Source of the DNA: an uncultured Oscillospiraceae bacterium
Lineage (GTDB): Bacteria; Bacillota; Clostridia; Oscillospirales; Oscillospiraceae
Assembly (NCBI GenBank): GCA_947626785.1
Contig: CANQTO010000022.1
Location: forward strand, 1 to 38,545
Reading direction: 5' to 3'
Length of the DNA: 38,545 bases
Shown: piece after piece, positions 5,141 through 15,053 of the stretch
Position numbering within the stretch: the stretch's first letter is position 1
How the letters are laid out: every line of letters begins with the position of its first letter
Position numbers and translations under genes: made by a program
Notes under the pieces: model-generated
Database searches by the model: none
Seen by the model: only the letters and a program-made list of their open reading frames with translations
What the model was told of the DNA's origin: nothing

Positions 5141-5178
5141 AAGCGAACCGCACGGCTCAAAAACCGTGCGGTTCGCTT
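5141..5178. terminator. Bidirectional hairpin between converging genes
   Basis: A perfect 15-bp stem (AAGCGAACCGCACGG, 5141-5155, with 5164-5178) around an 8-nt A-rich loop separates the symporter gene from the converging minus-strand operon. Its right half overlaps the last codons of the minus-strand gene. U-runs are short on both strands. Confidence 0.65.
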
Positions 5179-6008
5179 TGCCCGTCTGTGACAGATCCAC
5201 TCTCCGGTGCCTCTGCCGCTCCCGCGGGGGTAGGGATAAAGCCTTCAATCATCCTTTTGCGCTCCGGGTGGCGAATACAGAAATAACCGGCCACGGAGAA
5301 GACCGCCGCGCCGATGAAGTTCACAAACAGGTCCTCCATGGTGTCAATCAGGCCGATATCCAGGTAACCGCCCAGGCCCAGGTCCTGCCCGTTGACCAGC
5401 ACCTCCTGGATGCCCGTCAGCCCCACGCTGATGTTCTGCCCCGTGGGGTCCAGCATCACAGAATAAATGCTTGTGACCACGGTGTCCTTCTGCATATCCA
5501 TGAGAAGCAGCCGGTCGGCGGCGTACTCGATAAATTCCCACAGCACCCCAATGGTCATGGAAAAGCAGAAGGCCACCAGCGCCACAAACAGCGGCGACAG
5601 GTCAAACTGGAACCGGCTCTCCCGGTTCAGCAGCCCCACCAGAGAGAAGCCGATGGCCGCGCAGAGAAAGCCGTTGACGGTGTGCAGCACGGTGTCCCAA
5701 TGGGGAAACTGGATAAAAAACGCGCTGATCTCACCCAGGATCTCTGCGGCAAACACGAAGATGAGCAGAATGATCTCCAACGTGGAGGGAAACGATACGC
5801 GGAAGGCGGCCTGTACCACGCTGGGCAGGATCATCAGCACCAGGGTCAACAGGCAGAGAAAGACATTTTCATAATGGCCGTCTATGAGCTGCCGGATCAG
5901 CACCAGCAGGACCAGCAGCCTCAATCCGATATAGACCAGAAAGCTGCTCCTGTGTTCCGTCAGCTCCCGGAGTACCGCCCGGTAAAAACGGCGCCCTTTC
6001 TCCCTCAT
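5157..6008 (-). CDS. Integral membrane protein resembling YjdF (DUF2238)
   Basis: A 283-residue protein with about seven hydrophobic helices between residues 22 and 250. Polar residues embedded in the membrane part are striking: HWDTVLH (103-109) and GVLWEFIEYAAD (154-165). This pattern of histidines and acidic residues in helices recalls the YjdF/DUF2238 membrane family, whose function is unknown. The C-terminal tail after about residue 255 is polar and low in complexity. It is the last gene of a minus-strand operon behind the TetR regulator and a DUF308 protein, 15 nt after the latter, and so probably responds to the same signal as the lipid-type operon on the other side. Family assignment is by pattern only. 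Confidence 0.55.
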   Translation of the reverse strand: MREKGRRFYRAVLRELTEHRSSFLVYIGLRLLVLLVLIRQLIDGHYENVFLCLLTLVLMILPSVVQAAFRVSFPSTLEIILLIFVFAAEILGEISAFFIQFPHWDTVLHTVNGFLCAAIGFSLVGLLNRESRFQFDLSPLFVALVAFCFSMTIGVLWEFIEYAADRLLLMDMQKDTVVTSIYSVMLDPTGQNISVGLTGIQEVLVNGQDLGLGGYLDIGLIDTMEDLFVNFIGAAVFSVAGYFCIRHPERKRMIEGFIPTPAGAAEAPESGSVTDGQSEPHGF

Positions 6009-6023
6009 CTCAAGTCACCCGAA

Positions 6024-6617
6024 TCAAAGGAAGCTGTCGAAGAAATCGTCGTCGATCTTGTCCGGGAACTGATTGCGGATGATCTTGACGGTGAAGAGGA
6101 CCGTGATCAAATTCAGCGCCCCGTCCAGGAATAGGGAAATGCCCAGGAACATGGTCAAAAACCGGGCGCTCTCTGCCGGGGCGAAGATCATCGTCAGGCC
6201 CGCCGCCGAGGACAGAACGGCGATGCTCAGGATCAGCCACCACTGGGGGATGCCAAAGCTACGGGCATCCAGCGAGATCTGGATCTTCAGCAGACCGTCT
6301 GTCAGGAAGGACAGGCCGATGGCGATAAACAGGGTACGGGTCATGACCTCCGGCCGGAGCAGGACCATGATCCCCAGCACCACCAGCAGCCCGCCAAAGG
6401 CCAGGTCATACTGAAAGGCCAGCCGGTACAGATCCCTGGACAGATAGCCGATGATCCGGATCACGCCGAAGGCGATCATAGCGACGCCCACCATCTCGCT
6501 GAACACCGTCAGGGACAGACTGGGCATCGCCAGCAGCAGAGCGCCAAACAGGCAGAGCGCGGCGGAAAGCACGATATAGCCGGTCTTGGCGATACGCATG
6601 GGAACGACAGAACGCAT
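6024..6617 (-). CDS. DUF308 / HdeD-like membrane protein
   Basis: A 197-residue protein with six regularly spaced hydrophobic helices, glycine-rich in the middle of each (GVAMIAFGVIRIIGY, GGLLVVLGIMVLL, LGISLFLDGALNLI), arranged as the repeated pairs typical of DUF308. HdeD of this group is linked to acid-stress resistance in enterobacteria, but most members are uncharacterised. The start at 6617 is supported by AAAAGGAAG 9 nt upstream. It lies between the TetR gene and the YjdF-like gene on one transcript. An envelope-stress or membrane-organising role would suit the neighbouring lipid genes; that is inference. Confidence 0.75.
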   Translation of the reverse strand: MRSVVPMRIAKTGYIVLSAALCLFGALLLAMPSLSLTVFSEMVGVAMIAFGVIRIIGYLSRDLYRLAFQYDLAFGGLLVVLGIMVLLRPEVMTRTLFIAIGLSFLTDGLLKIQISLDARSFGIPQWWLILSIAVLSSAAGLTMIFAPAESARFLTMFLGISLFLDGALNLITVLFTVKIIRNQFPDKIDDDFFDSFL

Positions 6618-6656: not shown

Positions 6657-7232
6657 TTACGAATCGATCGGATTTTCCTGGCTCCGGCGGATCAGCGCCT
6701 CCAGAGAGCCCATTTTCAGAAAACAGAGCCGGTCGATATCCTCGACGACCTCCTCCTTCATGCCGTTGCCGATCCAGTCGATCAGCAGGCCGAAGCAGGC
6801 GCATTTGTGATAGTGGATGATGATGGCCTTATCCTTCTCACAGCAGGGGGACCCGGCCATAATGGCGTTCACATAGAGGGAGGCGGCATGATCGCAGATA
6901 CGCCAAAGAGTATCCACGTAGATCCGCCGGTCATCGGAGTGATAGATGTGCATGACCACCCGCTTGCTCTTCAGAGCAAACTCCATCACAGAGTTCAGAC
7001 ATTCTGTTATAGAACGGATGTTGGGGTACTCCCGGACAAACCGGTCCACTTCGCTGATGCACAGCTCCTCCAACAGATCGGGGATGCTTTGATAATGATA
7101 ATAAAAGGTATTGCGGTTGACACCGCAGCGGTCCGTGATGTCCCTGACCGTGATCTTGCTCAGGGACCGTTCGTTGAGAAGCTCAACGAACGCGCTCTGT
7201 ATCAGACGCTTTGTCAACTCCGTGGTGGCCAT
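6657..7232 (-). CDS. TetR-family transcriptional regulator
   Basis: From the ATG at 7232 the product is 191 residues, beginning MATTELTKRLIQSAFVELL. The helix-turn-helix is clear (ITVRDITDRCGVNRNTFYYHY, about residues 27-47), followed by a helical ligand-binding region with several cysteines and histidines (CCEKDK, HYHKCACF). This N-terminal layout resembles the DhaS-type TetR branch. The frame is open up to an upstream ATG at 7280, but that overlaps the predicted start of transcription. The gene heads a minus-strand operon and is divergent from the radical SAM operon; a perfect palindrome at 7301-7313 overlapping its own -35 element is the obvious operator, so autorepression and control of the divergent operon are likely. 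Confidence 0.85.
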   Translation of the reverse strand: MATTELTKRLIQSAFVELLNERSLSKITVRDITDRCGVNRNTFYYHYQSIPDLLEELCISEVDRFVREYPNIRSITECLNSVMEFALKSKRVVMHIYHSDDRRIYVDTLWRICDHAASLYVNAIMAGSPCCEKDKAIIIHYHKCACFGLLIDWIGNGMKEEVVEDIDRLCFLKMGSLEALIRRSQENPIDS

Positions 7233-7286
7233 GGTTCTTTCAGCCCTTTGCATTGAAATAAACGGGTGCCCTGCAATCATTGTACC

Positions 7287-7314
7287 ATAATATCATTTTC
7301 TGACTATTAGTCAA
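7287..7314 (-). promoter_or_regulatory. TetR gene promoter with overlapping operator
   Basis: On the minus strand TTGACT (7314-7309), a 16-bp spacer and TATTAT (7292-7287) form a good promoter. The -35 element lies inside the perfect 13-bp palindrome TGACTATTAGTCA (7301-7313), a typical size and position for a TetR-family operator. Confidence 0.7.
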
Positions 7315-7324
7315 TTTCTCGACT

Positions 7325-7418
7325 TTGCCTAAAAAACAGGCAATTTTGCTGTTTTCCCTATTTTTTAGATAGGGTCCCGCTTTTGCCTAATGAACGTTTT
7401 TTTAGATGCCGGTATAAT
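7325..7418 (+). promoter_or_regulatory. Upstream region of the radical SAM operon
   Basis: A TATAAT (7413-7418) gives a likely -10; no strong -35 is seen at the right distance, so an activator may be needed. Upstream are an inverted repeat TTGCCT-N7-AGGCAA (7325-7343), a second inverted repeat CCCTAT-N7-ATAGGG (7356-7374) and another TTGCCT copy (7383-7388). These differ from the TetR palindrome and suggest a second regulator. Confidence 0.45.
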
Positions 7419-7455
7419 GGGAGCATCCAAAGAAAAATACAAGGAGGTCCTCATC

Positions 7456-8808
7456 ATGGATGTTTCCACCACCCTGAAAAAATACGGTATCAGCAAAGCG
7501 ATCCAATATGTGTATAAGGACCCGGACGAGAATCTGAAAACCCTGATCGACTGGGCGGACAAGTTCTCCAAGGGACAGTTTGAGAGCCAGCGCAGGACCA
7601 TCCGGGCGGCCTTTACGGATCCGGACAATGCCTATTATCCCTTCGTGCGCCATATGCTCCGGGACGTGGATCAGAAGGTGCTGACCACGGCTGCGGTCAA
7701 CTTCTTCGTTAACGCCAACCTGGTGGGCTGGGAGCGGCAGGAGGAGCTGCGCAAACAATATAACTGTAACATCCCCTGGGCCATCCTTCTGGACCCCACC
7801 TCCGCCTGCAACCTCCACTGCGTGGGCTGCTGGGCCGCCGAGTACGGCAACCGGCTGAACCTGAGCTTTGAGGAGATCGACGACATCATCCGCCAGGGCA
7901 AGGACATGGGCGTCTATCTGTACATCTACACCGGCGGCGAACCCCTGGTGCGGAAAAAGGACCTGATCCGCCTGTGCGAGAAGCACTCCGACTGCGTTTT
8001 CCTCTGCTTCACCAACGGCACCCTCATTGACGAGGCCTTTGCCGATGAGATGCTGCGGGTGAAAAACTTTGTCCCCGCCCTCTCCCTGGAGGGCTTCGGC
8101 GAGGCCACCGACAGCCGCCGGGGAGGCGGGGTCTATGAAAAGGTCCTGGCCGCCATGGACCTGATGCACCGGAAAAAGCTGCTCTACGGCATCTCCTCCT
8201 GCTACACCAGCGCCAACTGGGACTCCATCACCTCGGAAGCGTACTACGATATGCTGATCGAGAAGGGCGCCTACTTCATCTGGTATTTCCACTATATGCC
8301 TGTGGGTAACGACGCCTCCCCGGAGCTGCTGCCTACGCCGGAGCAGCGGGCGGAGGTGTTCCGCCGCATCCGGGATTACAGGACCCGCAAGCTGCTGTTT
8401 GCCATGGACTTTCAGAACGACGCGGAATTTGTAGGCGGCTGCATCGCCGGCGGACGGCGTTATCTGCACATCAACGCCAACGGCGACGTGGACCCCTGCG
8501 TCTTTGTCCACTATTCCGACTCCAACATCCGGGAGAAGAGCCTGCTGGATGTGATGCGCTCGCCTCTGTTCATGGCCTACCATGACGGGCAGCCCTTCAA
8601 CGAGAACATGCTCCAGCCCTGCCCCATGCTGGAAAACCCGGACACCCTGCGGGAGATGATCCGCAAGACCGGGGCCAAGTCCACGGATATGCAGTCCCCG
8701 GAGACGGCGGAGCACCTGTGCGCCAAGTGCGACTCCTACGCCGCCTGCTGGCAGCCCACGGCGGAGAACCTCTGGGCAAAGCGCAAGGTAGAGAAGGGGC
8801 AGAAATAA
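7456..8808 (+). CDS. Radical SAM enzyme with SPASM-like C-terminus, function unknown
   Basis: A 450-residue protein. Residues 1-105 form an alpha-helical N-terminal extension. The radical SAM core begins at NIPWAILLDPTSACNLHCVGC: C118, C122 and C125 form the CX3CX2C site for the 4Fe-4S cluster, and TGGEP (159-163) is the SAM-binding GGE motif. Six further cysteines (C329, C348, C389, C422, C425, C431) suggest one or two auxiliary clusters in a SPASM/twitch-like domain. I recognise this as a conserved family of strict anaerobes without an assigned reaction. The ATG at 7456 follows AAGGAGG. It is the first gene of an operon with SAM synthetase, acyltransferase and glycosyltransferases, so a lipid or glycolipid substrate is an attractive inference; a peptide substrate is less likely because no small precursor gene is visible. 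Confidence 0.85.
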   Translation: MDVSTTLKKYGISKAIQYVYKDPDENLKTLIDWADKFSKGQFESQRRTIRAAFTDPDNAYYPFVRHMLRDVDQKVLTTAAVNFFVNANLVGWERQEELRKQYNCNIPWAILLDPTSACNLHCVGCWAAEYGNRLNLSFEEIDDIIRQGKDMGVYLYIYTGGEPLVRKKDLIRLCEKHSDCVFLCFTNGTLIDEAFADEMLRVKNFVPALSLEGFGEATDSRRGGGVYEKVLAAMDLMHRKKLLYGISSCYTSANWDSITSEAYYDMLIEKGAYFIWYFHYMPVGNDASPELLPTPEQRAEVFRRIRDYRTRKLLFAMDFQNDAEFVGGCIAGGRRYLHINANGDVDPCVFVHYSDSNIREKSLLDVMRSPLFMAYHDGQPFNENMLQPCPMLENPDTLREMIRKTGAKSTDMQSPETAEHLCAKCDSYAACWQPTAENLWAKRKVEKGQK

Positions 8809-8847
8809 AGACGAGTTCAACAGCGTACAGGAGGAAATGCAGAAGCT

Positions 8848-9996
8848 ATGGAGAAACGAATTTTTACTTCTGAGTCCGTTACAAGAGGACATCCTGATAA
8901 GATCTGCGACCAGATTGCTGACCGGATACTCGATGAGGCGCTTTGGCAGGACCCAAACTCCCGCGTGGCCTGCGAGGTCACCTGCGCCACCGACCAGGTG
9001 CATATCTTTGGAGAGATCACGACCCAGGCAGAGCTGGATTACGAGGCTCTGGCCAGAAAGGTGATCGCGGAATGCGGGTATACCAGGCGGGGGAAAGGCT
9101 TTGACGCGGCAAGCTGCCGGGTCCGGGTGGATCTGCACCGGCAGTCCCCGGACATCGACCGGGGTGTCTCCCGGAGTGAGGATGCGGACCCATTGGACAG
9201 CGGTGCCGGGGATCAGGGCCTGATGTTCGGCTATGCCTGCCGGCAGACGCCGTCGCTCATGCCCTTCCCCATAGAGATGGCCCACGCTCTGGCCAAGCGT
9301 TTGGAGCAGACCCGCACCTCCGGCCGGCTGCCCTGGCTCCTGCCGGACGGAAAGACCCAGGTGACGGTGGAGTATGACGGCGAGACGCCTGTCCGCATCG
9401 CCACCGTAGTGGTGTCTGCCCAGCATGAGGAGGATATCGGCCTCCAGCAGCTGCGGGACGACATCCTCTCCCATGTGATCCTGCCGGTGCTGCCGAAGGA
9501 GCTGACGGATGAGAGGACCGAGTTTTATATCAATCCCACAGGGCGCTTCGTGGAGGGCGGCCCCGCGGCGGATTCGGGGCTGACCGGGCGCAAGCTGATC
9601 GTGGACAGTTACGGCGGCTATGCCCGCCACGGGGGCGGCGCACTTTCCGGGAAGGACGCCACAAAGGTGGACCGCAGCGGCGCTTACATGGCCCGGTACC
9701 TGGCGAAAAACATTGTGGCCGCCGATCTGGCCGACCGCTGCGAGGTGCAGCTGAGCTATGCCATCGGCCTGGCGGAGCCCACTTCCGTGCTGGTGGAGAC
9801 CTTCGGAACGGCCAAGGTCAACCAGCAGGCGATCCAGGCGTTTATCCACTCCTCGGTGGATCTGCGCCCGGCGGCCATCATCCGGCGCTTCGGCCTGAAC
9901 CGGCCCATTTTCTCAGAGGTCTCCTGCTACGGGCACTTTGGGAGCAACGCTTCGCGTATGCCCTGGGAGCAGACAGACCTGTGCGGCGCCGGCTGA
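8848..9996 (+). CDS. metK: S-adenosylmethionine synthetase
   Basis: A full-length 382-residue enzyme that makes SAM from methionine and ATP in the cytosol. Active-site motifs are present: GHPDK (14-18), HRQSPDIDRGV (98-107), GAGDQG (119-124), LPDGKTQVTVEY (165-176), and GGGALSGKDATKVDRS (262-277), where most enzymes have GGGAFSGKDPTKVDRS. No catalytic residue appears lost. AGGAGG lies 13 nt before the ATG, rather far. It follows the radical SAM gene by 39 nt in the same operon. A metK placed among specialised genes suggests a second copy dedicated to SAM supply for its neighbour; whether another metK exists elsewhere cannot be seen here. Confidence 0.93.
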   Translation: MEKRIFTSESVTRGHPDKICDQIADRILDEALWQDPNSRVACEVTCATDQVHIFGEITTQAELDYEALARKVIAECGYTRRGKGFDAASCRVRVDLHRQSPDIDRGVSRSEDADPLDSGAGDQGLMFGYACRQTPSLMPFPIEMAHALAKRLEQTRTSGRLPWLLPDGKTQVTVEYDGETPVRIATVVVSAQHEEDIGLQQLRDDILSHVILPVLPKELTDERTEFYINPTGRFVEGGPAADSGLTGRKLIVDSYGGYARHGGGALSGKDATKVDRSGAYMARYLAKNIVAADLADRCEVQLSYAIGLAEPTSVLVETFGTAKVNQQAIQAFIHSSVDLRPAAIIRRFGLNRPIFSEVSCYGHFGSNASRMPWEQTDLCGAG

Positions 9997-10015
9997 AGGT
10001 ACGGAGGATGACCCT

Positions 10016-10987
10016 ATGAAACATACTGTGAAGGATGCGGCCCGGACTGCCGCCATGACGGCCGCCGCGGTCACCGCGGCCTCCGTGACCTCCTTTGCCG
10101 CGACCAAATACATGGTCCGCATGGCGCTGGACCGGGAGCCCCCCAAAGCGCCGGAGGCGGCCCGTCGACTCATTGCCGGGGCGATCCCCCATGAGGAATT
10201 CTTCAAGGCGGTGACAGAGGCAGGGGAAAAGCTGGCCGCCAAACCCAATGAAACGGTGGAGATCACGGCCTCCGACGGAACGCCCCTGGTGGGACATTGG
10301 AGGCCGGTCCCCAACGCCCGGCGGGTACTTGTCGCCATGCACGGCTGGCGTTCCACCTGGTACGGGGACTTTGGCCTGATCGCGGATTTCTGGGAGAAAA
10401 ACGGGTGCAGCGTCCTCTATGCCGAGCAGCGGGGGCAGAACAACAGCGGCGGCGATTATATGGGCTTCGGCCTGATGGAGCGCTATGACTGCCAGGACTG
10501 GGTGAGATGGGTCAACAGCCGCACTGGGGCGGCCCTGCCCGTCTATCTCTGCGGCGTATCCATGGGCGCTACCAGCGTACTGATGGCGGCTGGACTTGAT
10601 TTGCCGGGGAATGTACACGGTATCGCCGGGGATTGCGGCTTCACCTCCCCGGACGCCATCTGGCGGCATATCGCCAACGACAATCTGCATATCCCTTATG
10701 GTCTGCGCTCCATGCTGGTGGAGGCCCTGGTGAAGAAAAAGATCCAGGTGGGACCGGAGGATTACTCCACGGTGGACGCCCTGAGCCAGAGCAGGATCCC
10801 CGTGCTGCTGATCCACGGCACTGACGACAGCTTTGTGCCGGTGGAGATGAGCTTTGAAAACTATAAAGCCTGCGCCGGACCGAAAAAGATCTTTGTGGTG
10901 CCCGGAGCCGACCACGGCATGAGCTACTATGTGGACAGAGAAGGGTATGAGGCGGCCGCCAGAGATTTCTGGCAGCAATTTGACTGA
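10016..10987 (+). CDS. Alpha/beta hydrolase, membrane-anchored
   Basis: A 323-residue serine hydrolase. Residues 5-36 form an alanine-rich hydrophobic segment that probably anchors the protein in, or exports it across, the membrane. The fold shows the oxyanion HG (109-110), nucleophile elbow GVSMG with S182, acid residue in HGTDD (D270/D271) and H300 in ADHGM. These are the marks of the BAAT/DUF1749-like peptidase and acyl-ester hydrolases common in Firmicutes. The ATG at 10016 follows GGAGG; the open frame upstream overlaps metK and is rejected. In this operon a lipid ester or acyl chain is a likely substrate, but that is inferred from neighbours only. Confidence 0.85.
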   Translation: MKHTVKDAARTAAMTAAAVTAASVTSFAATKYMVRMALDREPPKAPEAARRLIAGAIPHEEFFKAVTEAGEKLAAKPNETVEITASDGTPLVGHWRPVPNARRVLVAMHGWRSTWYGDFGLIADFWEKNGCSVLYAEQRGQNNSGGDYMGFGLMERYDCQDWVRWVNSRTGAALPVYLCGVSMGATSVLMAAGLDLPGNVHGIAGDCGFTSPDAIWRHIANDNLHIPYGLRSMLVEALVKKKIQVGPEDYSTVDALSQSRIPVLLIHGTDDSFVPVEMSFENYKACAGPKKIFVVPGADHGMSYYVDREGYEAAARDFWQQFD

Positions 10988-11038
10988 CCGGCCCGCGCAT
11001 CCCTTCCGCGGCAAAAAGAGGATCGAGGAGGATAGGAT

Positions 11039-11632
11039 ATGAAAACCACCGCCCTGTTTGCCCTGCTGGGCTATGCCTCCGGCAGCGTATTATACGCGCT
11101 CGTCTTTGCGCGGCTGTTTCATAAGGATATCCTGACAGACACCCGGGACCAAAACCCGGGGGTGGCCAACGCCTTTCAAAAGGGAGGCTTTCTCTGCGGG
11201 CTGCTGACCTTGTGCTGTGAGCTGCTGAAGGGATTTCTGCCGGTCGCGCTCTATCTCCGGCAGGGCGGCAGCGAGGCCGGACTGCTGCTGGTGCTGGCGG
11301 CGCCTGTGCTGGGGCATGTGTTTCCGGCCTGGCGGCGTTTTCACGGCGGAAAGGGCATTGCCGTCAGCTTCGGCTGCCTGCTGGGCCTGGCGCCGGATCT
11401 GCTGCCTGTGCTGATCTTCGCGGGGATCTTCATCCTGTTCTCCACCGTGATAAAGATCTCCCCGCACTTTTACCGGACCCTGGCGGCCTTTTTGTGCGCC
11501 TGCATCGCCATGCCCCTTCTGGGGGTTGGAGAGCCGGTCTGCCTGGGCTTTTTCCTCATGACGCTTACGGTGTTTTTCCGTTTCCAGCTCAGTCAGGAGG
11601 AACGGGAAAAAATGGAGGTAAAATGGCTATGA
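11039..11632 (+). CDS. PlsY-family glycerol-3-phosphate acyltransferase
   Basis: A 197-residue membrane protein of the size and topology of PlsY, which transfers an acyl group from acyl-phosphate to glycerol-3-phosphate. The three conserved loops are recognisable but divergent: SGSVLYALVFAR (about 14-25), DQNPGVANAF (37-46, usually SGNIGATNVLR-like) and GHVFPAWRRFHGGKG (92-106). It is therefore probably a paralogue with an altered substrate rather than the housekeeping enzyme. GAGGAGGATAGG precedes the ATG. Its stop codon overlaps the next gene, so the acyltransferase and glycosyltransferase are translationally coupled. Confidence 0.82.
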   Translation: MKTTALFALLGYASGSVLYALVFARLFHKDILTDTRDQNPGVANAFQKGGFLCGLLTLCCELLKGFLPVALYLRQGGSEAGLLLVLAAPVLGHVFPAWRRFHGGKGIAVSFGCLLGLAPDLLPVLIFAGIFILFSTVIKISPHFYRTLAAFLCACIAMPLLGVGEPVCLGFFLMTLTVFFRFQLSQEEREKMEVKWL

Positions 11633-12762
11633 ATGTTTTGCTGCTGTCCTGCGGTACCGGCGGAGGCCATGACGCCGCCTGTGCCGCCTGCGCCGAGGCC
11701 CTCGAAAGCAGAGGGCACAGGGTCACTACTCTGAACCCCTATACCCTCAAAAGCGCCGGCCTGGCCCGGGGCGTGGACAAGGCCTATATTTCCATGGTCC
11801 AGAAGGTCCCCGCCGCATTTGGGGCCGTGTACCGGCTGGGAGATGCCTACCGCCATCTGCCGGTCAAGTCCCCGGTATACGGGCTGAACCGGCGCATGGG
11901 GCCGGAGCTGGACGCTTACCTTTTGGGCGGACAGTTTGACGCGGTGCTCACCACCCACCTTTTCCCGGCGGAGATCCTGACGGGCTTAAAAAGAAAAGGC
12001 GTTCCTCTGCCCCCGGTCGTTTACATCGCCACGGACTACACCTGCATCCCCTTTACCGAGGAGACGGACTGCGACGCTTATGTGGTCCCCTGGAATGCCT
12101 CATGGGAATTTATACGGCGGGGCCTGCCGCCGGAGCGAGTCTTTGCCCTGGGCATTCCGGTGAGCGCCCGGCTGTCACAGCCGGTGGACCGGGCAGAGCT
12201 CCGGCAGGAACTGGGGCTCTATCCGGAGAAAAAGCTGATCCTCCTGACCGGCGGCAGCATGGGGGCGGGCTGTCTGGAGCAGGCGGTCTCTCTGCTGGTG
12301 GAGCAGGGGGACCGGAACTGGCAGCTGGTAGCCGTCTGCGGCCGGAACCCGGAGCTGGTGGACCGGCTGCGGTCGGTCTACGGCAGCTTCTGTACGGTGC
12401 TGGGCTATACGGACCGTTTTGCCGATTATATGCGGGTGAGCGATCTGTTGGTCTCCAAGCCGGGAGGGCTGTCCTCCACGGAGGCGGCGGTCTGCGGTGT
12501 GCCGCTGATCCACATCTCGCCCATCCCTGGCTGTGAGACGGCCAATATGCGGTGCTTTTCCGCTCAGGGGATGAGCCTGGCGGTCACAGACCCGGAGGTG
12601 CAGCTGCTGGACGCCTGCCGGCGGCTGCTGAACGGCCCGGAGCGGGAGATCATGCTGGAAAACCAGCGGCGGGGCATTTCTGCCGATTCGGCAGAGATAA
12701 TCTGCCGCCTTGCGGAACACCTGGCACGGGAGCGCGATGATGCCCTGCAAATGTCCTCCTGA
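11623..12762 (+). CDS. MGDG-synthase-type glycosyltransferase (GT28-like)
   Basis: A 379-residue GT-B glycosyltransferase. The N-terminal GTGGGHDAA (11-19) is the acceptor-side motif of monogalactosyldiacylglycerol synthase and processive diacylglycerol glucosyltransferases (UgtP type). The C-terminal half carries LLTGGSMGAG and the nucleotide-sugar site SKPGGLSSTEAAVCGVP (about 277-293). The expected reaction is transfer of a hexose from UDP-sugar to a diacylglycerol-like lipid at the inner membrane face. The ATG at 11623 lies 4 nt after GGAGG; an in-frame ATG at 11629 would give an ATGA overlap with plsY and is nearly as likely. The long open frame upstream lies in plsY. Confidence 0.88.
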   Translation: MAMNVLLLSCGTGGGHDAACAACAEALESRGHRVTTLNPYTLKSAGLARGVDKAYISMVQKVPAAFGAVYRLGDAYRHLPVKSPVYGLNRRMGPELDAYLLGGQFDAVLTTHLFPAEILTGLKRKGVPLPPVVYIATDYTCIPFTEETDCDAYVVPWNASWEFIRRGLPPERVFALGIPVSARLSQPVDRAELRQELGLYPEKKLILLTGGSMGAGCLEQAVSLLVEQGDRNWQLVAVCGRNPELVDRLRSVYGSFCTVLGYTDRFADYMRVSDLLVSKPGGLSSTEAAVCGVPLIHISPIPGCETANMRCFSAQGMSLAVTDPEVQLLDACRRLLNGPEREIMLENQRRGISADSAEIICRLAEHLARERDDALQMSS

Positions 12763-13429
12763 GAAAAAGCCCCCGTCCCGCCTGAGTAAAGCTCGCCGGG
12801 CAGCGTTTCTATGCTTCTGGGCAGGGTTTATCGTCCTCTGTGTGGTCTATCGGGATGAGATCACGGTAGAGAACATTTTGAGCTATACGCCCGAACAGCC
12901 TTTTCTGGCGGCTCTTGTGCTGCTGCTCTTGTTTGCTGGGAAAAGCCTGTCTGTGGTGCTGTACAGCGGCATCCTGTACGCGGCCGGAGGGCGGATGTTT
13001 CCGCTCCCCGCCGCGCTGCTGGTCAACAGCCTGGGGAGCGCCGTCATGCTGACCCTGCCCTTTTTCGTAGGCAGGCATATGGGGAAGGAGGCCATGGAGA
13101 ATCTTCTTGAGAAAAATCCCAAGCTCAGAAGCCTTCAGAGCTGGTCTAAGCAAAATGAAGGCTTTCTGATGATGTTTATCCGGATCATCGGGCTGCTGCC
13201 CTCCGATCTGGTCAGTATGTTTTTCGGGGCCTCCGGCGTCTCTTACGGCCGGTATCTCTTTTGGTCGCTGCTGGGGATGCTGCCGTCTGTTATCACGTTC
13301 ACCGTGATGGGGAGAAACCTGCATGACCCGGGCTCTCCGGCCTTTCTGATCGCTGCGGGCTGTGAGCTGGCGATGATGCTCCTGTCTCTGCTTGTCACCA
13401 TCCGAAAGAGGAAAAGGCATGACACATAA
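12737..13429 (+). CDS. VTT-domain (TVP38/DedA-like) membrane protein
   Basis: A 230-residue protein with a charged N-terminus and about five hydrophobic segments. The VTT (SNARE-associated) signature region is present: a glycine-rich re-entrant part (YSGILYAAGGRMFPLPAALL) and RIIGLLPSDLVSMFFGASG in the second half. Proteins of this superfamily are linked to transbilayer movement of lipids and lipid carriers. It begins with two ATG codons at 12737 and 12740 inside the glycosyltransferase gene and overlaps it by 26 nt. In this operon a role in moving the glycolipid product between leaflets is a reasonable inference. Confidence 0.8.
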   Translation: MMPCKCPPEKKPPSRLSKARRAAFLCFWAGFIVLCVVYRDEITVENILSYTPEQPFLAALVLLLLFAGKSLSVVLYSGILYAAGGRMFPLPAALLVNSLGSAVMLTLPFFVGRHMGKEAMENLLEKNPKLRSLQSWSKQNEGFLMMFIRIIGLLPSDLVSMFFGASGVSYGRYLFWSLLGMLPSVITFTVMGRNLHDPGSPAFLIAAGCELAMMLLSLLVTIRKRKRHDT

Positions 13430-14243
13430 ACTGAATATCCTTGTAACGCTGGACGAGAACTATCTCCCCCGGCTGAATGTGATGCTGTATTCGCTGCTCC
13501 GCTCGAACCCGGACTGCTCTTTTGACGTATATCTTCTCCACGGCTCCATCCGGTCGGCGGCGCTGGCGCGGACAAGGGCACTTCTGGCGGGCAGGGGGCG
13601 TCTCTGCCCCATACAGGTCACGGAGCCCCAGCTGGCGGACGCGCCTACCACGGACCGCTATCCCCAGGAGATCTATTACCGGATCTTTGCGGCCCGGTAT
13701 CTGCCCCGGGAGCTGGACCGGGTGCTGTACCTGGACCCGGACCTGATCGTCAACGGCAGCCTTTGGCCCCTGTATACGCTGGATATGACGGACTATTATT
13801 TTGCCGCGGCCTCCCATGTGGGGGCGCTGATGCTGAAGATCAATGACCTTCGCTTGGACATGGACGAGACGGCGCCCTACATCAACTCAGGGGTCATGCT
13901 GATGAACTTAGAGCTTCTCCGCCGGGAGCAAAAGGTGGAGGATGTGTTCCGCTTTATCCGGGAGCGGAAGAATCTGCTGGTGCTGCCGGATCAGGACATC
14001 ATCAGCGGCCTCTACGGCCGGCGGATCTACGCGCTGGACCCCTTCCGCTACAACATGACGGAGCGGCTTTTCCAGGCCCACGCCCCCTTTGACATGGAGC
14101 TGGACCTGGACTGGGTGCGGAAGAACTCCGTCATCATCCATTACTGCGGCCGGAACAAACCCTGGAAAAAGCACTATCTGGGGCAGCTGGATGTGTTTTA
14201 TCTGGAGGCAGAGTCCGGTTTGGAGAAGGTAAAAGGAATATAA
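13419..14243 (+). CDS. Glycosyltransferase family 8 protein
   Basis: A 274-residue GT-A enzyme. LNILVTLDENYLPRLNVMLYS opens the nucleotide-binding fold, LYLDPDLIVNGS (104-115) holds the metal-binding DxD (D106-D108), and NSGVMLMNLELLR and the late HYCGRNKPWK are standard GT8 motifs. Such enzymes transfer hexoses from UDP-sugars onto lipopolysaccharide, glycogenin or glycolipids. The ATG at 13419 overlaps the VTT gene by 11 nt and follows AGAGGAAAAG. A second sugar on the glycolipid begun by the upstream transferase is the simplest reading. This is the last gene of the packed operon. Confidence 0.88.
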   Translation: MTHKLNILVTLDENYLPRLNVMLYSLLRSNPDCSFDVYLLHGSIRSAALARTRALLAGRGRLCPIQVTEPQLADAPTTDRYPQEIYYRIFAARYLPRELDRVLYLDPDLIVNGSLWPLYTLDMTDYYFAAASHVGALMLKINDLRLDMDETAPYINSGVMLMNLELLRREQKVEDVFRFIRERKNLLVLPDQDIISGLYGRRIYALDPFRYNMTERLFQAHAPFDMELDLDWVRKNSVIIHYCGRNKPWKKHYLGQLDVFYLEAESGLEKVKGI

Positions 14244-14267: not shown

Positions 14268-15053
14268 ATGAATCTGTGGGTAAAAGCTTTAGTCTGTTTT
14301 ATAGCTGGCATCGGAGCGGGGCTGGGAACCGGTTTTGCCGGAATGAGCGCCGCCGCGGTCATCAGCCCCATGCTGATCACATTTTTGGATATGCCGGCTT
14401 ATGAGGCGGTAGGAATCGCTCTGGCCAGCGACGTGCTGGCAAGTGCTGTCAGTGCCTATACCTACGGTAAAAATAGAAATCTTGATATAAAAAACGGTCT
14501 TGTTATGATGGTGACCGTCTTGCTTTTTACCTTGGTAGGCAGTTGGGTAGCAAGTCTGGTCCCCAACACCACAATGGGCAGCTTCTCAGTCTTTATGACG
14601 ATGCTTTTGGGCATCAAATTCATTGTAAAACCCGTTATGACCACGAAAGAAGCGATGGCGGACGTAAGCGCGAAAAAGCGAGTGCTCCAATCTATTGTCA
14701 GCGGTATGTTTGTAGGTTTTATCTGTGGCTTTGTGGGCGCGGGCGGCGGAATGATGATGCTGCTCCTGCTGACCAGCGTTTTGGGATATGAATTGAAGAC
14801 CGCTGTCGGTACAAGTGTCTTTATTATGACCTTTACCGCACTGACCGGCGCTGTCAGTCATTTTGCCATCGGCGGTGTTCCCGATTTGTGGTGTCTAATC
14901 TTCTGCGTGGCATTTACTCTGCTGTGGGCAAGGATCGCCGCGTTGTTCGCAAACAGGGCCAGCGCCAAAACGCTCAACAGGGCTGTGGGTGTGGTTCTGA
15001 CGGTCTTGGGCGTGGCAATTCTTTCTGTTAATGTTTTCAGCGGGAGAGGCTAA
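14268..15053 (+). CDS. TSUP-family (TauE/SafE) anion transporter
   Basis: A 261-residue membrane protein with eight hydrophobic helices in two repeated halves; each half opens with the family glycine motif (GAGLGTGFAGMSAA near 16-29 and GFICGFVGAGGGMM near 152-165). TSUP proteins export or import sulfite, sulfoacetate or other sulfur and organic anions; the substrate cannot be told here. It starts 24 nt after the GT8 gene with only a weak GGGAG site, so it may or may not belong to the operon. Its base composition is visibly less GC-rich than the genes before it and a family II repeat lies 13 nt after its stop, so it may have been acquired separately. Confidence 0.88.
   Translation: MNLWVKALVCFIAGIGAGLGTGFAGMSAAAVISPMLITFLDMPAYEAVGIALASDVLASAVSAYTYGKNRNLDIKNGLVMMVTVLLFTLVGSWVASLVPNTTMGSFSVFMTMLLGIKFIVKPVMTTKEAMADVSAKKRVLQSIVSGMFVGFICGFVGAGGGMMMLLLLTSVLGYELKTAVGTSVFIMTFTALTGAVSHFAIGGVPDLWCLIFCVAFTLLWARIAALFANRASAKTLNRAVGVVLTVLGVAILSVNVFSGRG

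Follow-up and report, generated by a model that had tools for sequence, protein, structure and literature searches.

A radical SAM enzyme of probable Mss type with its own SAM synthetase, joined to a separate acyltransferase/glycosyltransferase cassette in an uncultured Oscillospiraceae bacterium

Introduction

Lipids that span the membrane form a bridge across the "lipid divide" that separates bacteria from archaea, and palaeothermometers are based on them. The locus considered here, which lies in a stretch of 38,545 nucleotides from an uncultured Oscillospiraceae bacterium (contig CANQTO010000022.1 of GenBank assembly GCA_947626785.1; the whole stretch is called the window), encodes a radical S-adenosylmethionine (SAM) enzyme that is probably of the type of Mss, the bacterial membrane-spanning lipid synthase. 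Bacterial Mss enzymes have already been described (PMC13274423; PMC11604127), so that the word "undescribed", which a preliminary description of the locus had used, is too strong for the radical step. The published search for Mss targeted radical SAM (rSAM) membrane proteins with a CxxxCxxC motif (PMC11767167). Mss together with Ger is listed for many Clostridia families, including 277 Oscillospiraceae species, and iso-diabolic acid is reported from C. subterraneus, M. thermoacetica and others (PMC13274423). The mss gene of T. maritima was earlier tested in E. coli, where co-expression of mss and ger gave no membrane-spanning lipid (PMC11604127), and for the archaeal enzyme Tes a consumption of two SAM per biphytanyl chain has been proposed (PMC9433317).

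In the window, an rSAM/SPASM gene heads a run of seven plus-strand genes. All seven open reading frames claimed in the preliminary description are present, and the families named there (Radical_SAM with SPASM, MetK, alpha/beta hydrolase, PlsY, MGDG_synth/GT28, VTT and GT8) are confirmed by Pfam and NCBIfam. The run consists of two units, rSAM-metK and PlsY-like/GT28, and is not one conserved operon. Our reading, to which we assign a probability of roughly 0.6, is that of a composite locus, in which an Mss-type rSAM enzyme with a private MetK is combined with a separate cassette. Of the "lipid operon headed by a radical SAM enzyme", then, one half stands, in that the enzyme probably acts on a lipid or fatty acid in the manner of Mss or Tes, while the single seven-gene pathway does not. 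New here are the lineage of the linked MetK and a cluster-less paralogue of the rSAM enzyme found in relatives.

The radical SAM enzyme and its distribution

The Mss-like enzyme (450 aa; 7456..8808, plus strand; Pfam Radical_SAM and SPASM) carries its CxxxCxxC motif at residues 118-125. C118, C122 and C125 are invariant in 52/52 rows of an alignment of the window protein with 51 of 80 named loci, as are three more cysteines (329, 348 and 389). The structure model has a helical N-terminal domain, with helices only and no strand assigned before residue 109.

The window genome (2.75 Mb in 98 contigs, labelled G000) holds a single copy of this gene (E≤1e-5). Counting that genome, relatives are found in 65/394 genomes within the order (E≤1e-90), 75/293 within the class (E≤1e-75) and 140/299 within the phylum (E≤1e-60). 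The genus set comprises 37 genomes, the window's included and many of them incomplete, and 4/37, again with the window's, have an orthologue, the window protein being 77-80% identical to the other three. A sister rSAM family, 31-36% identical to the window protein and matching in the core only, occurs in 14 genomes of the same genus (loci including L008, L010, L011, L013, L014, L018, L019 and L021), with CYSRC at the cluster motif in three sequences. Because these sister enzymes stand at 31-36%, a homology cut-off such as that published for Mss (E≤1e-30, >30% identity) may span several rSAM subfamilies.

Among the named carriers (the best 80 of at least 596) are Caldanaerobacter subterraneus, Moorella mulderi, a Thermoanaerobacter, Caloramator and Tepidanaerobacter, together with Fournierella, Odoribacter, a Cloacimonadota and Spirochaetota. 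In C. subterraneus the window enzyme has a single relative (E≤1e-12); this is the one producer species checked, and the strain examined differs from the producer strain of the paper. Of the 18 named Bacillota families represented by the named loci, 16 appear in Table 2 of PMC13274423 (Neomoorellaceae being read as Moorellaceae), Mahellaceae and Ca. Fermentithermobacillaceae being absent from that table, which is broad, so that the match lends weak support to Mss. Since the enzyme occurs in a species listed as a producer of iso-diabolic acid, and sometimes among lipid genes, it is most likely of the Mss type.

A dedicated SAM synthetase

Gene neighbours were surveyed in 206 rSAM loci other than the window (126 stretches plus the 80 named loci), a relative being scored when tblastn (E≤1e-8) placed it within 5 kb of the rSAM gene. 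Counts are raw and contig ends truncate some loci; merging near-identical loci at 99% identity leaves 202, with the neighbour pattern unchanged.

Behind the rSAM gene in the window lies a SAM synthetase gene (metK; 8848..9996, plus strand), the product of which scores 533 bits against a cut-off of 309 for TIGR01034. Its stretches GHPDK and SGKDATKVDRS, which we take to be active-site motifs, are aligned with stretches of 7ll3, a SAM synthase of solved structure. The preliminary description had called this the enzyme's own synthetase, and rightly so: it is one of two metK copies in the genome, and in a MetK tree the 12 linked rows (the window and 11 of 12 linked loci, L326 being left out and L317 long-branched) fall on one side of a branch (98/94), apart from housekeeping metK. 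The other copy in the window genome, at the edge of contig C37 and 59% identical over the part covered, clusters with the housekeeping copies of the genus. The MetK of this locus thus belongs to the rSAM enzyme, as a dedicated lineage.

A metK gene lies directly 3' of the rSAM gene, on the same strand, in 12/206 loci. These 12 amount to fewer independent cases, because loci with metK within 400 nt fall to 10/202, 7/181 and 4/153 upon collapse at 99%, 90% and 80% identity, respectively. Within the genus, it is the 4/37 genomes with an orthologous rSAM gene that show a second metK, and one of these (G034) has a third (44%). G004 has two overlapping contig-end pieces, and so possibly a second copy; the two pieces in each of G013 and G015 are different parts of one gene. 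On a quick rSAM tree (LG+G4, midpoint root; 89 rows from the 206 loci and the window, comprising the metK-linked loci, the loci marked as pseudo and every third other, with sequences identical or under 380 aa dropped), the linked state requires at least three changes, two of them forced by starred branches, so that the pair has a history of repeated gain or loss. Forming a separate clade, the linked MetK offers a sequence marker of lineages in which the radical step may be heavily used. Among open texts, and with these terms alone as search words, no relevant text was listed that names radical SAM together with metK and membrane lipid, membrane-spanning lipid together with SAM synthetase, or oleate hydratase (an occasional neighbour, below) together with radical SAM.

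A cluster-less paralogue in relatives

In 18/18 distinct loci (20 before two duplicates were removed), a paralogue of the rSAM gene lies divergently, 45-242 nt away; examples are L320:3682-4737, L314:3761-4801, L333:3751-4818, L340:2209-3270 and L344:927-1943, with 13 further distinct loci. The paralogue retains the N-terminal region and is without the six conserved cysteines and GGEP, save for a single cysteine in each of three rows, at three of the six positions. Because it is this region that the cluster-less protein keeps, a binding role for the N-terminal domain of the rSAM enzyme is suggested. None was found in the window genome itself (E≤1e-5).

The PlsY-like/GT28 cassette

The second unit consists of a PlsY-like membrane acyltransferase of an aberrant subfamily (11039..11632, plus strand; Pfam G3P_acyltransf) and its recurrent partner, an MGDG/UgtP-like glycosyltransferase of family GT28 (11629..12762, plus strand; MGDG_synth/GT28). 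The survey scored no relative of either one (0/206 each). Adjacent PlsY-like/GT28 pairs are found in genomes G008, G012, G042, G045 and G058, and by eye in G049, where a contig end cuts the locus, and the same rSAM family is absent from the stretches read around these six pairs. In the rest of the genus (36 genomes), rSAM-metK occurs in three (G024, G032, G034), PlsY-like/GT28 in two (G008, G012) and both in none. GT28 was not found in the former three (E≤1e-20), nor was an orthologue of the rSAM gene in the latter two. The synteny in relatives by which the preliminary description would have its proposal tested is missing: beside the two zeros, GT8 accompanies the rSAM gene in 1, the VTT protein in 6 and the hydrolase in 4 of the 206 loci. 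The seven-gene run as a conserved operon was rejected, the combination being absent from all 206. A second copy of the cassette stands on contig C11 of the window genome, its PlsY-like and GT28 proteins 84% and 78% identical to those of the window, beside a TetR gene whose product is 59% identical to the window's.

That the PlsY protein is "divergent" was well judged, as it scores 86 bits against a cut-off of 137 for TIGR00023. It is homologous in sequence to the solved PlsY 5xj5 (5e-13) and keeps the GGKG loop; the two differ at motif 1, where GSGNVGATNVTR is aligned with RDQNPGVANAFQ and where Ser and Arg, which we take to be substrate-binding positions, are replaced in the window protein by Asp and Gln. 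The DxNPG motif of the window protein recurs in L178, L180, L181 and L182, the four relatives with a start far enough upstream to include it. Because of these replacements, the acceptor may differ from glycerol-3-phosphate.

Promoter regions, gene layout and neighbours

A TetR-family regulator (6657..7280, minus strand; Pfam TetR_N and TetR_C_8) diverges from the rSAM operon across a putative promoter/operator region (7281..7455), of which ~107 nt are homologous to the region beside the C11 cassette: the local alignment score is 54, as against a mean of 26 and a maximum of 50 in 200 base-composition shuffles. Within it, a possible operator, the 12-mer TTTTGCCTAATG (7381..7392, plus strand), occurs exactly twice in the genome, each time between a TetR gene and its divergent operon (reversed-pattern control, 0). 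The pattern is confined to the window genome, and shared ancestry of both intergenic regions could account for it without function. The core 7-mer of the 12-mer, TGCCTAA, was considered as a family-wide operator and dropped, being found in 8/206 rSAM-upstream regions against 9 for the reversed word and a permuted mean of 4.5 (16/100 permutations reach 8); L067 and L184, two of its eight loci, lie close to the window's clade.

The rSAM gene begins with ATG 7456, preceded by a ribosome site AAGGAGG (7441-7447) and TATAAT (7413-7418). By eye these and the following starts are the best: 8848 for MetK, 10013 for the hydrolase, 11039 for PlsY-like, 11629 (a 4-nt overlap with PlsY-like) or 11623 for GT28, 12737 for VTT and 13419 for GT8. 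The alpha/beta hydrolase (10013..10987, plus strand; Pfam) has, by eye, a hydrophobic N-terminal segment and a GVSMG nucleophile motif and is a possible lipase or esterase; in L067, L312 and L328 relatives lie 3' of the rSAM gene and in its orientation. The VTT-domain (DedA/TVP38-like) membrane protein (12737..13429) and the GT8 glycosyltransferase (13419..14243), both plus strand and assigned by Pfam, overlap the genes before them by 26 and 11 nt; the remaining gaps in the run measure 39, 16 and 51 nt. A scan for terminator-like sites listed some inside genes and none between adjacent members of the run. Downstream, the run has no sharp end, since a membrane-protein gene on the same strand (14268-15053) follows 24 nt past GT8. 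Its product, which had no match in an NCBIfam search, is TauE-like by eye, as are the names MMPL, patatin, FabH and PlsC used below.

Upstream, on the minus strand, lie two occasional neighbours of the rSAM gene, a membrane protein of no Pfam family (5157..6008; relatives in 4/206 loci) and a DUF308/HdeD-like membrane protein (6024..6617; PF03729, 4.9e-20; 10/206). Farther off, two small overlapping frames (1858-2386) resemble, by eye, an antitoxin and a toxin of what we take to be the Phd/YefM and RelE/ParE families.

A TetR relative is the commonest neighbour given here (42/206 loci, 21/206 within 400 nt), followed by a second rSAM-type gene (23), DegV (18), PF06541 (16), a winged-helix (wHTH) protein (15), MetK (14), oleate hydratase (8), MMPL (6), patatin (4), a second hydrolase type (2), FabH (1) and PlsC (1). 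In L258:6207-9299, FabH-like, rSAM and PlsC-like genes are consecutive on one strand. The immediate neighbour of the rSAM gene in L253, L254, L257, L259, L265 and L266 encodes a protein of 218-264 aa that looks winged-helix-like by eye; that of L253 had no Pfam match, and the protein is a candidate regulator in place of TetR. An oleate hydratase (MCRA, 1.5e-221) lies directly 5' of the rSAM gene in 7/206 loci (L071, L322, L323, L325, L326, L331, L349), five of which are near-copies. Hydratases 98-99% identical to that of L071 occur in Oscillospiraceae, Lachnospiraceae and one family-less record, and such identity across family boundaries suggests that an oleate hydratase-rSAM-metK island was transferred recently.

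Discussion

If the enzyme is of the Mss type, its helical N-terminal domain would hold acyl chains belonging to two membrane lipids. At the CxxxCxxC cluster, bound SAM would be cleaved to a 5'-deoxyadenosyl radical, which would abstract hydrogen near the end of one chain; the chain radical would be stored, perhaps at a three-cysteine auxiliary cluster, and then joined to the second chain to give a membrane-spanning diacid lipid. As every bond so made would consume SAM as a reagent, a dedicated MetK would be explained, and a private supply would fit stoichiometric use of SAM by the radical enzyme. A separate head-group (glycolipid) cassette would be made up of the PlsY-like/GT28 pair together with VTT and GT8. 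With that pair fused behind rSAM-metK-hydrolase here and its second copy under a paralogous TetR elsewhere in the genome, related TetR proteins may govern the two loci. The simplest history would have TetR, promoter, PlsY and GT28 duplicated, and rSAM-metK-hydrolase then inserted behind one promoter copy; alternatively, the order may have been the reverse, with loss from C11.

Several other readings bear on the same observations. The enzyme might act on lipids or fatty acids without tail-to-tail coupling, for instance by introducing methyl branches, double bonds or rings, or by acting on hydroxy fatty acids that oleate hydratase provides. The hydratase directly 5' of the rSAM gene in seven loci is in keeping with this, as is the rSAM tree, in which most gut-type rows stand apart from those of Caldanaerobacter and Thermoanaerobacter, so that function may have shifted. 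The catalytic cysteines and many motif positions are, however, invariant in both groups, and near-copies make up most of the hydratase loci, and we regard this reading as unlikely, though one to be taken seriously. Slightly less probable still is that the seven genes are one genuine, newly assembled pathway to a membrane-spanning glycolipid. The tight, overlapping packing, the gaps free of terminator-like sites and the promoter homology with the C11 locus would all suit it; against it stand the zero counts for PlsY-like and GT28 in the survey and the placing of the two units in different genomes of the genus.

Least probable of all, indeed improbable, is a SPASM maturase of ribosomally synthesized and post-translationally modified peptides, or a cofactor enzyme. 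The nearest solved structures are SuiB, SkfB and anSME, and weak NCBIfam matches include NirJ2 and sactipeptide maturases, but among the matches listed (25/51) all fall far below their cut-offs, the best reaching 71 of 500 bits. Association with peptide precursors, which the preliminary description held would speak against a lipid role, was not seen: no small same-strand open reading frame recurs within 700 nt of the rSAM gene in the 206 loci and the window, the largest clusters (5-6 loci) consisting of frames on the metK side or in loci that are near-copies. The strand-free start of the model, where an RRE-like N-terminal domain would be expected, may also speak against a maturase. With no precursor gene found nearby, this reading was set aside, weakened rather than closed.

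The composite reading is thus preferred, and from it a broader proposal may be drawn, tentative and on balance doubtful: that gut Clostridia possess a distinct, TetR-controlled membrane-spanning lipid system, with an Mss-like rSAM enzyme, a co-inherited MetK and, in about one-tenth of the rSAM loci surveyed, a divergently encoded, cluster-less partner, which in the window lineage was fused to an acyltransferase/glycosyltransferase cassette to yield a membrane-spanning glycolipid in the gut. The expressed mss gene as reported is that of the thermophile T. maritima (PMC11604127), and a counterpart from a gut anaerobe, with a SAM supply of its own, would offer a mesophilic system that is tractable. 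The split into two units also cautions against reading the seven-gene run as one pathway.

Comparison with known systems

Tes/GDGT-MAS (7tol; PMC9433317) has, as described there, rubredoxin and N-terminal auxiliary cluster domains, unlike the window enzyme, with which it shares weak sequence similarity in the rSAM core only; fold comparison was dropped as proof of Tes or Mss identity, as it does not discriminate. The peptide maturases SuiB, SkfB and anSME differ in turn, the window locus being without a nearby precursor frame and the modelled N-terminal region helical. For GT28, the best solved relatives are UgtP/MGDG synthases (9wde, 4e-26; 4wyi, 4.4e-15), and diglucosyl-diacylglycerol synthase models are matched far under their cut-off (112 of 500 bits); unlike UgtP/MGDG synthase, the window enzyme is coupled to an aberrant PlsY. 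A search for Ger/PlsA in the window genome gave one DUF2229 match, with DUF2229 and BcrAD in the part read and an open frame of 1007 aa, as against 1415-1614 aa in twelve relatives.

Closest are the Mss enzymes, radical SAM proteins with CxxxCxxC, as in the window (PMC13274423; PMC11868695; PMC11604127; PMC11767167). A search of these sources for an Mss accession gave function and species and no sequence, and the likeness drawn here is one of motif, distribution and gene context. The two distributions overlap in Clostridia families, Cloacimonadota, Spirochaetota and Bacteroidota, with C. subterraneus common to both. Unlike the described Mss, the rSAM enzyme studied here is accompanied by a private MetK, TetR and DUF308 and, in the window genome, by a putative glycolipid cassette.

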